A DNA stretch of 64,000 nucleotides, taken from positions 425,963 through 489,962 of the forward strand of contig NZ_CP059203.1 in the NCBI RefSeq assembly GCF_014251955.1, written 5' to 3'. Positions within the stretch are counted from its first letter, which is position 1; the number at the start of each line of letters is the position of its first letter. Of the stretch, positions 2,089 to 63,020 are shown in pieces. The stretch comes from Blattabacterium cuenoti (GTDB taxonomy: Bacteria; Bacteroidota; Bacteroidia; Flavobacteriales; Blattabacteriaceae). Made by a program: the position numbers and the translations under genes. A model generated the notes under the pieces. The model had not been told where the DNA came from, did no database searches, and saw nothing but the letters and a program-made list of their open reading frames with translations.

Positions 2089-2228
2089 TTAATTTTTATT
2101 CAAAAAAAAATAACATTCAGAATAATTATAATTAATTAAATATGCAATAAAATTTTCTTGTACAGAAAGAAAATTTCTAAATCAGAAAAGAAGAATTTCT
2201 AATTTTTTATTTATATTTACCTGAATTA

Positions 2229-2331
2229 GGAGCAAGTCCTACGCAATCAGCTCCCTATAAAATCCTCCAGGGTGGGAACACAGCAAAGGTAATAGGTTTG
2301 TAGCGATGTGATGTAGATTAGCTTGCTCCTT
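2229..2331 (+). ncRNA. ffs: Signal recognition particle RNA (4.5S-like)
   Basis: The ends GGAGCAAG (2229-2236) and CTTGCTCC (2322-2329) pair to close a long hairpin. Near the apex are GGTGGGAACACAGCAAAGGTAA, which resembles the SRP Alu-less domain IV loops with the conserved GNAR-type tetraloop and internal loop seen in Bacteroidetes. The 3' strand carries GATGTGATGTAGATTAGC, like the E. coli 4.5S 3' arm. A T-rich tract (2331-2340) follows and may end transcription. It lies between the starts of pyrG (minus) and clpX (plus), so it has its own promoter; TATATTTA at about 2211-2218 is a weak -7 candidate. The exact ends are estimated. Confidence 0.85.
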
Positions 2332-2378
2332 ATTTTTTTATCATGTTTGTCATGCTTTTTTTTTATAAAACATGAAAA

Positions 2379-16447: not shown

Positions 16448-18097
<1,650 letters not shown>

Positions 18098-18850: not shown

Positions 18851-19240
18851 TTAAATATCTTCAAAATTAATATTTGTAAAATTCTTTATTTCTGATGTTT
18901 TTTTTTGAACATCTTTCATTTCTTGATTAAATGTATGATTTTTAAAATCTTTTTGATGACGTTCTGAAATGACTTCTCTTCCTTTTTCATTGATAATAAA
19001 TCGAATCATATCATCAAGAATACTTTGAAATTTAGAAAAATCTTCTTTGTACAAATAAATTTTATGTTTTTTATAAGTTATTTCTCCTGTTTCAGAAAAA
19101 TTTTTCTTACTTTCAGTAATAGTTAAATAATAATCTCCTGCTCTCGTCTCTCTTGCGTCAAAAAAATATGTACGACTACCAGTTTTTAGAGTACGTGAAC
19201 AGATTTCATTTCTTTCTTTAATCTTTTCTTTTTCGTCCAT
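18851..19240 (-). CDS. PUR-alpha-like DNA/RNA-binding protein (DUF3276)
   Basis: The 129-aa protein matches the Bacteroidetes DUF3276/PUR family: SRTLKTGSRTYFFDARETRAGDYYLTITESKK, then KHKIYLYKEDFSKFQSILDDMIRFI. The PUR fold is a single-stranded nucleic-acid binder; its role in bacteria is not established. The C-terminal tail is charged and variable. A TAGATTTG promoter box lies 36 nt upstream. It is a single-gene unit. Confidence 0.85.
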   Translation of the reverse strand: MDEKEKIKERNEICSRTLKTGSRTYFFDARETRAGDYYLTITESKKNFSETGEITYKKHKIYLYKEDFSKFQSILDDMIRFIINEKGREVISERHQKDFKNHTFNQEMKDVQKKTSEIKNFTNINFEDI

Positions 19241-19276: not shown

Positions 19277-19284
19277 CAAATCTA
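19277..19284 (-). promoter_or_regulatory. Candidate Bacteroidetes -7 box for the PUR-like gene
   Basis: The minus strand reads TAGATTTG (19284-19277), matching TAnnTTTG, 36 nt before the start codon. No -33 TTTG is evident. Confidence 0.4.
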
Positions 19285-19337
19285 AATAAAAAAAATGGTC
19301 CATCCTACTTTTCTTAAAATTATTCAAAGTAAATTTC

Positions 19338-34395: not shown

Positions 34396-34456
34396 GTTTT
34401 TTTTCATTTTTTTTGGATAGGAAAAAAACAAATCCAAACCAAATGTAAATAAAAAT

Positions 34457-45635: not shown

Positions 45636-45686
45636 CATAGTTCCACTGTTTATTATAGTTTTTTTTATAAAAAAAATAAAACTATG
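45636..45686 (-). promoter_or_regulatory. Alternative hairpins (possible attenuator) in the rplL-rpoB gap
   Basis: On the minus strand, ATAGTTTT (45685-45678) can pair with nearby AAAACTAT (45662-45655). The longer-range CATAGTT (45686-45680) can instead pair with AACTATG (45642-45636), which is followed by TTTATTTTTTT. Both use the same 5' arm, so they exclude each other. The outer one resembles a terminator. This gap is a classic site of partial termination between ribosomal and polymerase genes. No protein-coding sequence is seen here. Confidence 0.4.
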
Positions 45687-50537: not shown

Positions 50538-51185
50538 TCAAAAAATTTTTACACTTTTAATTTTATTCTTGAATACTAACAATAAAATAACACCAAGGAA
50601 GATCACAAAATCTGAAAAATTAAAAACTGGTTTAAAAAATTGAAAATGATATCCACCAAAAAATGGAATCCAATGAGGAATATTAGTATCTATTATAGGA
50701 AAATAAAACATATCGACAACACATCCTTCCATAAAAGAGGAATAACCTCCAGAGAACAAAGAACTACTACTCATTTTAGATATTCCAGGATAAGAAATCC
50801 ATTTATGATATTCTTTATGATAAATTGTTCCTGTATCAAATAACATCCCATATAAAGCACTATCTAAAAAATTTCCTATAGCTCCTGACAAAATAAAACT
50901 AGTAGGAAAAATAAAAAAATTTGAAGATTTTTTTTTTACATTTTTATAAAGAAAAATAGAAATAAAAAATATTAATAAAAAACGAGAAATACTTAAAAAA
51001 ATTTTTCCATAATATCCAGGAGCAAGAAAAAAACCATAAGCCATCCCAGGATTTTCTACAAGGATAATCCAAAAGAAAGAAAAAATAGGAAATCCACCAC
51101 CCAATTCAAAATGGGTTTTTATATAAATTTTTAAAAACTGATCTATTAATAAAATAGAAAAAATAATTAAAAAAATTTTTTTCAA
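50538..51185 (-). CDS. lspA: Lipoprotein signal peptidase (signal peptidase II)
   Basis: LspA cuts signal peptides from lipoproteins such as LptE. The 215-aa membrane protein has D15 in LLIDQFLK, VENPGMAYGF (45-51), and the two catalytic aspartates D108 (GAIGNFLDSALYG) and D158 (GCVVDMFYFP). The long stretch between them is typical of Bacteroidetes LspA. ileS lies 195 nt upstream. That gap shows no gene; dksA, often found between these two in related bacteria, is not recognisable. Confidence 0.92.
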   Translation of the reverse strand: MKKIFLIIFSILLIDQFLKIYIKTHFELGGGFPIFSFFWIILVENPGMAYGFFLAPGYYGKIFLSISRFLLIFFISIFLYKNVKKKSSNFFIFPTSFILSGAIGNFLDSALYGMLFDTGTIYHKEYHKWISYPGISKMSSSSLFSGGYSSFMEGCVVDMFYFPIIDTNIPHWIPFFGGYHFQFFKPVFNFSDFVIFLGVILLLVFKNKIKSVKIF

Positions 51186-57878: not shown

Positions 57879-59351
57879 TCATTCATTCCTATAATTGAAA
57901 TAATTTGGAGATTCTTTTGTAATACTTACACTATGTGGGTGATTTTCTTTTAATCCAGAATTAGTAATTCTAACAAATTTTCCAGTATTCATTAATTCTG
58001 TAATGGTGGATACTCCACAATATCCCATTCCAGAACGTAATCCTCCACAAATTTGATAAAGAACATCTTTTATTTTTCCTTTGTAAGGAACTCTAGCTTC
58101 TATTCCTTCTGGAACAAATTTTCTATTAAATTGAAAATAACGATCCTTACTTCCTCTATTCATAGCGACTAAAGATCCCATTCCTACATATGTTTTAAAT
58201 TTTCTTCCCTGAAAAATAATTTCTTCTCCTGGAGCTTCATCTGTTCCAGCAAACAAACTTCCAATCATAACAGAACTGGATCCAGCTGCGATCGCTTTAA
58301 CTACATCTCCTGAATATCTGATTCCTCCATCAGAAATTACATTGACATTCCTTGTTTTTGCATATTCATATACATCATTTATGGCAGTAATTTGAGGCAT
58401 TCCAACCCCAGCTATAACTCTCGTTGTACAAATAGAACCTGATCCAATTCCTACTTTTAAAATAGTGGATCCAGCGTCAATCAAATCTTTTGCGGCTTCC
58501 ATAGTCACTATATTTCCAGCTAATAATGCTATCTTTGGAAAATATTTTCGAATTGACTTTATCATTTTCAATATACTAGCAGAATGACCATGAGCTGAAT
58601 CTATGGCTATAATATCTACACCTACTTTCACTAAAGAATCTACTCTCTCTAAAGTATCTTTATCTATCCCTACAGACGCTCCCACTCGTAAACGACCTTT
58701 AGAATCTTTACATGCGTTAGGGTATTCTATTAAATTATCTATATCCCTAATTGTAATTAGACCTACCAGTTTTTTATTATCGTCTACAATAGGTAATTTT
58801 TCTATTCTTTCTTTCAAAAGAATTTTTTTTGCTTTTTCTAAAGTTATATTCCTTTTAGGAGAAGTAATTAATTTTTCTTTTGTCATCACATCTTCTACCA
58901 AAGAATCTAAATCCATACGGTATTTAATATCTCTACGAGTAATAATTCCAACTAAAGAATGATCTTTTTCAATTACAGGAAGTCCAGAAATGTGGTATTT
59001 TTTCATAAGAGACTGTGCATCTCTAAGTGTTGAATTTCTAGAAAGAGTAATAGGATCATCTATCATTCCGCTTTCACTTCTTTTGACTCTATAAACTTCT
59101 TCTGATTGATTTTTTATATTCATATTTTTGTGGATAATTCCTATTCCACCTTCTCTTGCTATAGAAATAGCAAGAGAAGATTCGGTCACTGTATCCATTG
59201 CCGCACTTAATATAGGAATATTAAGAGTAATATCAAATGTTAAAGAAGTTTTAAGAGATACTTCTGATGGATGAATAGAAGAATAAGATGGAACGAGTAA
59301 AACATCATCAAAAGTTAAAGCCTCTTTTAAAATTTTTTTATTTAAAGACAT
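57879..59351 (-). CDS. guaB: Inosine-5'-monophosphate dehydrogenase
   Basis: GuaB oxidises IMP to XMP, the committed step to GMP. The 490-aa protein has the TIM barrel interrupted by two CBS domains (about residues 90-205), the catalytic cysteine loop [16 protein letters not shown], the phosphate-binding [14 protein letters not shown], and the flap [10 protein letters not shown]. All are intact. The upstream gap to the divergent lipoprotein gene is 251 nt. Confidence 0.96.
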
Positions 59352-59557
59352 AATTTTTTAGTTTTTTTTCAAAATATATATAAATTGGGTTAGTCAAATT
59401 CTTCTATATCTAAAAAAATATGAATTGTAATATTCTTATTTCCAAAAGAAAAGAAAAGAAAGAATACAAAAATTTTTTTTAGAATTAATAGATAATTTTT
59501 CATTTTTGATGAAAAAAAAACAAAAAATGATATATTTTATCATTCCAAATTTTTATA

Positions 59558-59565
59558 TAAATTTG
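59558..59565 (+). promoter_or_regulatory. Candidate Bacteroidetes -7 box for the small lipoprotein
   Basis: TAAATTTG matches TAnnTTTG and ends 37 nt before the ATG at 59603. No clear -33 TTTG. The rest of 59352-59602 has no gene on either strand that can be supported. Confidence 0.4.
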
Positions 59566-59602
59566 CCCAGAATATGTTATAACTGAAATAATATTATTGA
59601 TT

Positions 59603-59884
59603 ATGATGAAAAAATTAAGAATTACTATTACCACGATATTGTTAGCTATATTTTTATTTACAAGTAGTTGTAATAACAAATCTAAAAATGATAATACTTC
59701 TACTCCAACAGAAGAGGAAAAAACAGCTAATAATAACAACAATAATGAGAATCAAACAAATTCTACAACAACAACTCCACCTTCTACTTCAGAGGAATCC
59801 TCAAAAAATAATGGTGAAGATGCAACATCCAATAACAATGATAAAGAAAAAATAACTCCTGAAGAAAACGAAAAAAATAAATAA
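59603..59884 (+). CDS. Small predicted lipoprotein, Asn/Thr/Glu-rich, function unknown
   Basis: I do not recognise this gene. The 93-aa product (MMKKLRITITTILLAIFLF) has a signal peptide with a good lipobox (FTSSC, Cys near residue 22-23). The remaining 70 residues are hydrophilic and low complexity: Asn runs, Thr-Pro and Ser stretches and acidic Lys/Glu at the end, with no fold motif. It is flanked by a TAnnTTTG box and a strong terminator, so it looks like a real transcription unit. It could be surface-exposed or a periplasmic tether. The start may be either of two adjacent ATGs (59603, 59606); a TTG at 59597 is less likely. Confidence 0.7.
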   Translation: MMKKLRITITTILLAIFLFTSSCNNKSKNDNTSTPTEEEKTANNNNNNENQTNSTTTTPPSTSEESSKNNGEDATSNNNDKEKITPEENEKNK

Positions 59885-59901
59885 TCAAAACAAAAAAAAA
59901 T

Positions 59902-59948
59902 AATCTCAAAAAAGAGGGAAATAGAATGTTTCTTTCTTTTTTGAGATT
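59902..59948. terminator. Strong bidirectional terminator between the lipoprotein and rplS
   Basis: AATCTCAAAAAAGA (59902-59915) pairs perfectly with TCTTTTTTGAGATT (59935-59948). The stem continues through two G-T pairs and GAAA/TTTC to a 7-nt loop (59922-59928), about 20 pairs in all. The A and T runs are inside the stem. It lies 17 nt after the lipoprotein stop and 6 nt past the rplS stop on the other strand. Confidence 0.85.
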
Positions 59949-59953
59949 CATTT

Positions 59954-60307
59954 TCATTCTATATTCTTAACTCTTGCTTTCTTTCCTCTAAGAAATCTAA
60001 AATAATAAATTTTTGCCCTTCGTACTTTTCCTTTTTTATTCACCTCTATTTTTTGTATGTTGGGTTGATTCAAAATGAATATTCGTTCTATTCCTATTTC
60101 TCCACTCATTTTTCTAACCGTAAAAGTTTTTGTTAATCCTTTTCCTTGTTTTTTGATAACAACTCCCTTAAAAGATTGTATTCTTTTTTTTTCTCCTTCT
60201 TGAATTTCAAAAAAAATAGTTACAGTATCTCCAGAACTAAATAAAGGAAAATCATTTTTTTTAATGAATTTGTTTTCTATATATTTAACTAAATTATTTT
60301 TTGACAT
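59954..60307 (-). CDS. rplS: Large ribosomal subunit protein bL19
   Basis: L19 sits at the subunit interface of the ribosome. The 117-aa protein has FSSGDTVTIFFEIQEGEKKRIQSFKGVVIKKQG and the signature TFTVRKMSGEIGIERIFILNQPNIQKIEV, and ends with a basic tail (FLRGKKARVKNIE). Length is normal. It follows the glmM-type gene after 11 nt and ends at the shared terminator. Confidence 0.96.
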   Translation of the reverse strand: MSKNNLVKYIENKFIKKNDFPLFSSGDTVTIFFEIQEGEKKRIQSFKGVVIKKQGKGLTKTFTVRKMSGEIGIERIFILNQPNIQKIEVNKKGKVRRAKIYYFRFLRGKKARVKNIE

Positions 60308-61778: not shown

Positions 61779-63020
61779 TTACTCAAATTTTATAACTTTA
61801 ATGAGGGTTATTTTATTCATAATAAAAAAAATAGTAAAAAACATAGTAGAAAGACATATGAAAATAATGGATAGATTAATAAGAACAATGTTATTTATAT
61901 TAAAATAAATAGGAACAAAATCAATATAATATTGTATTTTATTTAATGATAAAAATCTAAATTTTTTTTGTAAAATGACAAAAGAAATTCCAATACTATT
62001 TCCTATTATCAATGAAGGAATTAAAATGTGCATTACGTAATATAAAAATATTTTATAAATAACTTTGTTTTCAGATCCTATAATTTTTAAAATTCCTATA
62101 GTTTTCGTTCTTTCTAAAATGAGAATTAAAAGAAATACGATCATATTAATAATAAGAGCTATCAAAACTACGAAAATAATAACAAGAATATTGACATTAA
62201 AAATATGAATCCATTCTAAAATATTAGAATAAAATTTATCATAAATAGTTTGAACCAGAAAATTTCTGGTAATTTTTTTGGAAATTTTATTTTTAATAAA
62301 TTCCGTTTTTTTATGATCAATAGAAGATAAAAAAAATTCAACTCCTTCTACAAAATTTTCATTCCAATTGTTTATATTCTGTATATGTTTCATATCTCCA
62401 ATAATATAAACATCATCAAATTCTGGAATTCCCGTATCATATAATCCACACACATAAAATTTTTTAGAAATAAAAAAAGGGATTCCTTTTTTGAAAAAAA
62501 GGAAATTGATTTGAATCAATGAACCAATGTTCAAGCCTAATGAAATGGAAACTTTTTGAGATAAAATAACTTCTTGACTAGAAAAAAGACTTTTTTTTAT
62601 CCTTGAAAAAGATCCTTTAACTAAAAAATCTTGAAAAAAAACAGGATTATAATCTTTTTTAGATAATCCTTTGAATACAAATCTTTCTACATTTTTATTT
62701 TTTGCAATAATCATTACATTTTTTTCAGAAAAAGTATGAATATGACGAATAGAATTTTTATGAATAAAAAATTCAACAGGAACTTCTTTTCTAGAAAATG
62801 GAACCTCTTTTTTTGACGTGATAATAATTTGACCTTTAATATTCAATAACTTTTTTATTATAACTTCTTTAAATCCAAATCCTATAGAAAAAGTTAGAAT
62901 AGTTATAATCACACTAATTACTATTGTAATTTGTGTGATTATAACTATTGTATAAAATATTTTACTTTGACTATAATTTTTCCAAATCGTTTTCTTTGAA
63001 AAAAACCATTCAAAATTCAA
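61779..63020 (-). CDS. ABC transporter permease of the LolC/LolE (FtsX-like) family
   Basis: The 413-aa protein has one N-terminal membrane helix (about residues 22-46), a large periplasmic domain, and three C-terminal helices (about 272-300, 320-345, 378-405). This is the MacB/LolE layout. LolCDE extracts outer-membrane lipoproteins from the inner membrane; LptE would be a client. The ATPase LolD is not in the window. It follows dnaB after 15 nt. Confidence 0.82.
   Translation of the reverse strand: MNFEWFFSKKTIWKNYSQSKIFYTIVIITQITIVISVIITILTFSIGFGFKEVIIKKLLNIKGQIIITSKKEVPFSRKEVPVEFFIHKNSIRHIHTFSEKNVMIIAKNKNVERFVFKGLSKKDYNPVFFQDFLVKGSFSRIKKSLFSSQEVILSQKVSISLGLNIGSLIQINFLFFKKGIPFFISKKFYVCGLYDTGIPEFDDVYIIGDMKHIQNINNWNENFVEGVEFFLSSIDHKKTEFIKNKISKKITRNFLVQTIYDKFYSNILEWIHIFNVNILVIIFVVLIALIINMIVFLLILILERTKTIGILKIIGSENKVIYKIFLYYVMHILIPSLIIGNSIGISFVILQKKFRFLSLNKIQYYIDFVPIYFNINNIVLINLSIIFICLSTMFFTIFFIMNKITLIKVIKFE

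Follow-up and report, generated by a model that had tools for sequence, protein, structure and literature searches.

A 93-aa lipoprotein gene lies between guaB and rplS in the window, the whole 64-kb stretch of DNA analysed here, which comes from a Blattabacterium genome of 639,415 bp assembled in one contig. The gene has a homologue in every genome of the genus that we compared, and its promoter contains the most conserved noncoding DNA of the surrounding 12 kb. The ORF is almost certainly a real, translated gene. Its sequence and conservation point to a lineage-restricted lipoprotein with a flexible tail that is probably expressed. As one more small lipoprotein it is ordinary, but its conservation, and that of its promoter especially, is unusual. 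Reduced endosymbionts retain few genes of unknown function. Because this gene belongs to no known family, is kept throughout the genus (49/49 genomes) and has the neighbourhood's most conserved noncoding DNA, it is a specific candidate for an envelope component on which an ancient symbiosis depends. The explanation we favour, at slightly less than an even chance, is a strongly transcribed small envelope lipoprotein that would face the periplasm and act there as a polyanionic brush or spacer.

The locus and its distribution

Both neighbours of the gene are encoded on the opposite strand (Table 1). The ORF opens with two consecutive ATGs. Translation probably begins at the first, because two relatives (G006 and G038) have Ile in place of the second Met. 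The product consists of MMKKLRITITTILLAIFLFTSS, then C, then a tail rich in Asn, Thr, Glu, Ser and Lys. The initial annotation had proposed searching sister genomes for a syntenic ORF. A near full-length homologue with no stop inside the match was found in all 49 genomes of the genus (the one that contains the window and 48 others). Everywhere its coordinates adjoin those of rplS, which is encoded on the other strand. The absence of the ORF from sister strains, which the annotation had named as grounds for giving up the idea, was thus not observed. The gene rplS itself was detected in 49/49 genomes (45/49 with one strict motif), and the N-terminal motif of guaB lies upstream of the lipoprotein gene, on the opposite strand, in 45/49 according to one strict pattern. 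Homologue lengths range from 87 to 110 aa.

Table 1. Features of the lipoprotein locus and related elements in the window.
Feature	Coordinates	Strand	Basis or remark
Gene of the 93-aa lipoprotein, including stop codon	59603..59884	+	ORF; homologues in 49/49 genus genomes; dN/dS <1 in signal peptide and tail
Signal peptide, residues 1-22 (MMKKLRITITTILLAIFLFTSS)	59603..59668	+	Most conserved part; AlphaFold2 helix 3-22
Cys23 codon, predicted lipidation site	59669..59671	+	Invariant, 49/49
Acidic disordered tail rich in Asn/Thr/Glu/Ser/Lys, Lys at the end	59672..59881	+	Composition, charge-hydropathy, low pLDDT
Conserved promoter block TATATTTTATCATTCCAAATTTTTATATAAATTTG	59531..59565	+	Alignment; G026 and G048 have a partial deletion of the upstream half
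Invariant 16-mer TTTTTATATAAATTTG ending in the -7 box	59550..59565	+	Identical in 49/49
-7 box TAAATTTG, fits Bacteroidota TAnnTTTG	59558-59565	+	49/49
Predicted start of the transcript with 5' leader (37 bases in the window)	59566..59602	+	Distance from the -7 box
Hairpin, probably a shared terminator	59902..59948	.	Shuffle tests; recurs in the genus
guaB, IMP dehydrogenase, divergent neighbour	57879..59351	-	TIGR01302
rplS, ribosomal protein L19, convergent neighbour	59954..60307	-	TIGR01024; position kept across the genus and in G053
lspA, signal peptidase II, would cut the lipoprotein signal peptide	50538..51185	-	PF01252
LolC/E-like lipoprotein-release permease	61779..63020	-	TIGR02212 below cut-off; FtsX PF02687 above cut-off
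Promoter of the DUF3276 gene, 19-base stretch TTTTTTTTATTTAGATTTG	19277..19295	-	Kept by five deep relatives

Outside the genus, we searched 19 further members of the family, 8 of which combine a completeness of 90% or more with no more than 5% contamination. Only one, G053, matches the lipoprotein (E 3e-8), and its genome of ~1.3 Mb is much less reduced. The 18 others, all of 0.2-0.3 Mb and 7 of them at least 90% complete, gave no match. The homologue in G053 has 91 aa (L213 5781-6056, minus strand) and is convergent with rplS, while its other neighbour differs. Since the arrangement with rplS is found in a less reduced member of the family, the gene probably predates the genus Blattabacterium. 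It had been described as lineage-specific; restriction to a lineage is borne out, but the gene is not confined to a single genus.

In an order-wide sample of 296 genomes, 52 matched the family: 46 of the genus and 6 of the 250 outside it. We rejected these 6 as homologues. They begin in the signal peptide, cover the profile in part (from position 2 or 10 up to positions 32-68), sit in open frames of 197-1852 aa, and were treated as chance likeness to a signal peptide. Around 80 rplS loci of named genomes, ORFs with a lipobox occur in 5 loci in a strict scan and in 41 in a relaxed one. The lipoprotein itself was found in just one of the 80, L094 (Blattabacterium cuenoti ECTONUhan), whose rplS also has the highest identity to that of the window among the loci listed (77%, the next at most 68%).

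The description of the protein as an orphan with no known domain agrees with our searches: none of the 12 Pfam matches of the window protein in all, and none of the best 25 of its 35 NCBIfam matches, is above the curated cut-off. Assignment to a known family was rejected, the sub-cut-off matches being judged to reflect low complexity or likeness to signal peptides. Across the 49 members, at E up to 0.001, Pfam gave New_glue in 20, SARAF in 6 and CD34 in 3. The gene is not described in the literature on Blattabacterium lipoproteins, transcriptome and envelope, as represented by titles, the beginnings of abstracts and some text, with few subscription journals among them.

Promoter and terminator

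A TAnnTTTG box had been reported at 59558, and it is indeed there (TAAATTTG), within a 16-mer that is invariant in 49/49 genomes. TAnnTTTG is given as the -7 consensus of the primary sigma factor (sigma-A) of Bacteroidota in PMC9723704. Conservation of the upstream half of the promoter block (TATATTTTTTCATT) is high without being complete, part of the block being absent from two genomes (G026 and G048). The distance from the -7 box to the ATG is 34 in 31/49 genomes, and the mean identity of the leader among the genus genomes is about 0.92. The corresponding match in G053 is modest: it ranks third, tied with the fourth, among ungapped scores on both strands of 12 kb.

We measured this conservation with two k-mer tests, in which relatives were chosen for diversity from the 48 available and coding DNA was masked with the ORF list, not an annotation. 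In the 12 kb around the locus, the promoter 16-mer is present in 20/20 diverse relatives, and the 16-mers that overlap it grade down on both sides (on the left 19, 19, 17 and 12 of 20). No non-overlapping noncoding 16-mer, in any intergenic region of these 12 kb, is common to more than 4/20 relatives, and none of the 11,035 coding 16-mers is shared by at least 18/20. Only tRNA genes compare with the promoter, as 12 of their 189 16-mers reach 20/20. The contrast is smaller with 12-mers, of which 5 noncoding ones (all at this promoter) and 4 coding ones reach 20/20. The second, coarser test set the 64-kb window against five deep relatives, each represented by 80 kb. A 19-base run of the promoter is kept by all five, and the other noncoding, non-RNA 16-mers found in all five belong to the promoter of a DUF3276 gene and to A/T runs near 45659. 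In coding DNA, 41 16-mers are also present in all five, many of them within the gene at 16454-18097, which we take to encode GroEL. At this resolution the promoter is not the sole invariant DNA.

The DUF3276 gene (18851-19240, minus strand) has, in its promoter, the only other 19-base noncoding, non-RNA run present in all five deep relatives. Both promoters are built alike, with a T-tract directly before TAnnTTTG, and one search pattern for this arrangement has three occurrences in the window, counted without a shuffle control: at the lipoprotein gene, at the DUF3276 gene and upstream of tRNA-Val. The third of these promoter-like sites lies at 34440-34455 on the minus strand. The build may be a mark of the strongest constitutive promoters, and the lipoprotein gene is likely to be among the most strongly transcribed genes. 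Conservation serves here as a proxy for strength, and regulation could explain it instead. The 35-base block is single-copy in its own genome at up to 3 mismatches, which rules out a wider regulon of this exact block. Promoter-like sites of the sigma-70 type are no more frequent than in shuffled sequence (11 in 1.6 kb, against a mean of 9.9), as expected because the phylum has another promoter type.

The initial annotation also gave the gene its own strong 20-pair terminator at 59902. The 20 counted pairs are there, just 4 of them G-C, and the hairpin beats shuffled sequence, with 3 terminator-like sites in 1.6 kb (nested versions of this one hairpin) against a mean of 0.3 (sd 0.7). The exclusive assignment fares less well: the hairpin, which stops 5 bases before the stop end of the rplS gene at 59954, appears to be shared with that gene. 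Its longest T-run is on the minus strand, the A-run of the plus strand being a T-run for the rplS transcript, and the hairpin should therefore serve rplS at least as well. It is probably a bidirectional terminator of both genes. Relatives in the genus carry a hairpin of different sequence. When a fixed 130-base stretch was compared with single-base shuffles, the hairpin exceeded all 10 of its own shuffles in 41/49 genomes and the pooled 99th percentile in 33/49. The locus contains no Rfam family at its gathering score. Relaxing the search to E up to 5 adds five weak matches, which all fall on the hairpin and stay far below their respective gathering scores. Elsewhere in the window, at 2223-2332 (plus strand), this flavobacterial endosymbiont genome encodes a small SRP RNA (Bacteroidales_small_SRP, Rfam RF04183).

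Signal peptide, tail and selection

The N-terminus has the elements of a lipoprotein signal, with a basic n-region, a hydrophobic core and a lipobox (FTSS) that ends in Cys23. The 93-aa ORF with a Cys-bearing lipobox, as first annotated, is thus well supported: Cys23 is invariant in 49/49 genomes, together with M1, K3, K4, L18, N25, K26, K28 and E37. The residue before the Cys is Ser in 44 genomes, Gly in 3 and Thr in 2 (n=49, taking the earlier of two Cys in G001 and G041). An AlphaFold2 monomer model built from a 49-row alignment shows the signal helix (residues 3-22) alone, with a mean pLDDT of 55.8.

A check for purifying selection had been suggested for the signal peptide and the length of the tail; we made it as dN/dS on the signal peptide and the tail. 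In a simple Nei-Gojobori estimate on related pairs (G001 and G041 being split at the earlier of two Cys), dN/dS came to 0.125 for the signal peptide and 0.378 for the tail when 318 pairs, which are not independent, were used, and to 0.197 and 0.348 with 21 disjoint pairs. These values indicate purifying selection on the signal peptide and on the tail average.

The composition of the tail is specific to its reading frame. The residues ILMFVWYC make up 1.9% of it. Shuffling its bases raises this share to 22.8%, and the two other forward frames have 43.1% and 20.1%. The second codon positions of the tail contain 2% T. Its net charge, counted from residue 27 and not from the Cys, ranges from -5 to -14 and is -7 or -8 in 42/49 genomes. 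The tail retains stretches resembling TEEEK, EESSK and TEENEK, and the mature acidic chain has 64-87 residues among the genomes compared. Given this frame-specific composition, the steady charge and the dN/dS, the tail is selected as a hydrophilic acidic chain whose sequence and length drift. The homologue in G053 points the same way, since its tail is rich in alanine and glutamate, not in asparagine, at a similar net charge (-9), which argues for conservation of composition (charge and few hydrophobic residues) more than of sequence. The flexibility initially ascribed to the tail is consistent with the low pLDDT and with a position on the disordered side of the charge-hydropathy boundary in 50/50 proteins (the 49 members of the genus and G053). 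The tail is thus a neat natural example of how a disordered region can be conserved in composition more than in sequence.

Location, function and known systems

In the mechanism that we propose, a primary-sigma-type promoter, with its T-tract directly before TAnnTTTG, would drive the gene at high strength. The signal peptide would direct the product to Sec, Lgt would lipidate Cys23 and LspA would cut before it. Lgt was found in the window's own genome, where alone it was searched, and LspA is matched in 49/49 genomes of the genus, in one piece in 48 of them. In G032 it is split by a stop (G032:C1:459117-459700, minus strand), which may be a sequencing error or a loss of lipoprotein processing; the lipoprotein gene of this genome is intact. 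The mature product would then have three parts: a lipid anchor, a fixed basic collar (two Lys within positions +2 to +6) and, beyond it, a disordered acidic chain.

The best NCBIfam match of the LolC/E-like permease, TIGR02212, has 93.9 bits (E 9.7e-27) against a curated cut-off of 362.45. The carrier LolA was not found in the window's own genome with two Pfam models (PF03548 and PF16584), so the lipoprotein may stay in the inner membrane. According to PMC6039017, lolD is a pseudogene in two Blattabacterium genomes, and PMC11885536 treats LolA and LolB in Bacteroidota.

The first residues after the Cys bear on which way the protein faces. Surface export signals of Bacteroidota are rich in acidic residues at +2 to +6, as in the examples QKDDE, SDDDD and SDDFE available from PMC5080379. 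The same positions of our protein hold exactly two Lys and no acidic residue in 49/49 genomes (taking the later Cys in G001 and G041); in G053 they read KGPEK, with an acid at +5. Because the genus proteins differ in this way from export signals, we regard the lipoprotein as periplasm-facing on balance. There, a membrane-tethered polyanionic brush or spacer could keep membranes, wall and periplasm apart and hydrated, which is the weakest step of the proposal, and this brush or spacer role taken by itself is doubtful. If it holds, amount, charge and length would weigh more than exact sequence. A structural protein made in quantity would fit the lipid anchor, the basic collar, the disordered chain of nearly fixed charge and the very stable promoter. 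The retention of the gene in all relatives examined and the conservation of its promoter suggest that much of the lipoprotein is made and needed by the cell. A broader version is more speculative still, and in our estimate rather unlikely: a family-specific, very abundant disordered lipoprotein would be the main charge-bearing spacer of the envelope in place of Lpp- or OmpA-type proteins, its dose fixed by a promoter core that selection keeps unchanged throughout the genus and its chain selected mainly for charge, length and the basic collar.

The initial annotation had instead suggested that an exposed, flexible lipoprotein could contact the host, which would presumably be through its tail. 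The tail is hydrophilic, evolves faster than the signal peptide and is restricted to the lineage, and many Bacteroidota lipoproteins are surface-exposed according to PMC11885536. The basic collar speaks against export when set beside the signals known from PMC5080379. Moreover, a second lipoprotein of the genus, described below, does have Asp at +3, and the dN/dS of the tail gives no sign of host-driven diversification at the resolution of these estimates. We therefore consider surface exposure with host contact improbable. Still less probable is that the signal peptide and the basic collar are the working part, binding a partner or the membrane, with the tail as passive filler. This would account for the lowest dN/dS being found in the signal peptide and for the constant two Lys, but a passive filler is hard to reconcile with a tail that keeps its charge, its scarcity of hydrophobic residues and its conserved short stretches.

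A tether like the Braun lipoprotein, with the C-terminal Lys joined to peptidoglycan, would suit a small, predictedly lipidated and probably abundant protein. The last residue is Lys in 46/49 genomes, although the end varies in length, and in G053 too, against 4 of the 43 ORFs of at least 150 aa in the window. A C-terminal Lys can also reflect a preference in translation termination. The L,D-transpeptidase domain YkuD was matched in 0/49 genomes of the genus; in a control search it was found in 6/14 named genomes, the sole Bacteroides among them not being one of the six. With no coiled coil and a tail predicted to be disordered, we judge a peptidoglycan tether very unlikely. A locus working mainly as RNA (a leader or small RNA, the ORF being secondary) would agree with a promoter that is the most conserved DNA and a leader that is fairly conserved too, but is scarcely credible given the lack of any Rfam family at gathering score, the frame-specific composition of the ORF and its dN/dS below 1. 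Finally, a decaying remnant or spurious ORF, as its shortness and low complexity in a reduced, AT-rich genome might suggest, is refuted by the 49/49 homologues free of stops, the purifying selection and the invariant promoter.

The second Blattabacterium lipoprotein, at ~210 kb (L197:544-1131, plus strand; L258-L287; G000:C1:212363-212764), surfaced as a weak secondary match in searches with the 93-aa family. It adjoins a gene on the opposite strand. The protein has 195 aa in L197, and lengths parsed from 15 genomes span 189-241 aa. It was matched in 39/49 genomes of the genus, and its missing match in the other 10 suggests fast evolution or loss. After the Cys it reads N or S, then D, with Asp at +3 in 23/23 readable loci of the 30 examined (7 were unreadable, and a pattern that itself requires an acid at +3 was needed to find 2 of the 23). 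This acidic start resembles an export signal. Both are hydrophilic lipoproteins at the level of the genus, but the second is longer, has the Asp at +3 and goes unmatched in some genomes; homology between them does not appear demonstrable beyond signal peptide and composition. With one lipoprotein acidic at +3 and the other basic, Blattabacterium would have both kinds.

Three known systems resemble the 93-aa lipoprotein. Pfam New_glue (PF21827) is a low-complexity secreted protein that 20/49 members match at E up to 0.001, but with 23.6 bits the window protein falls short of the curated cut-off (31 bits), and the likeness is probably one of composition. The LES surface lipoproteins of Bacteroidota have in common with it the lipobox, the phylum and a flexible region after the Cys; they differ in what follows the Cys, where our protein has its two Lys and zero acidic residues in 49/49 genomes. 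The third is Lpp of Escherichia coli, whose promoter is AT-rich and strong-looking. The 93-aa lipoprotein is likewise very small, ends in Lys in most genomes and has an AT-rich, strong-looking promoter, whereas it has no family match and is predicted to be disordered, unlike the coiled-coil trimer of Lpp. With YkuD matched in none of the 49 genomes and no coiled coil predicted, it is somewhat Lpp-like but not an Lpp; it would also share with Lpp a probably high abundance.
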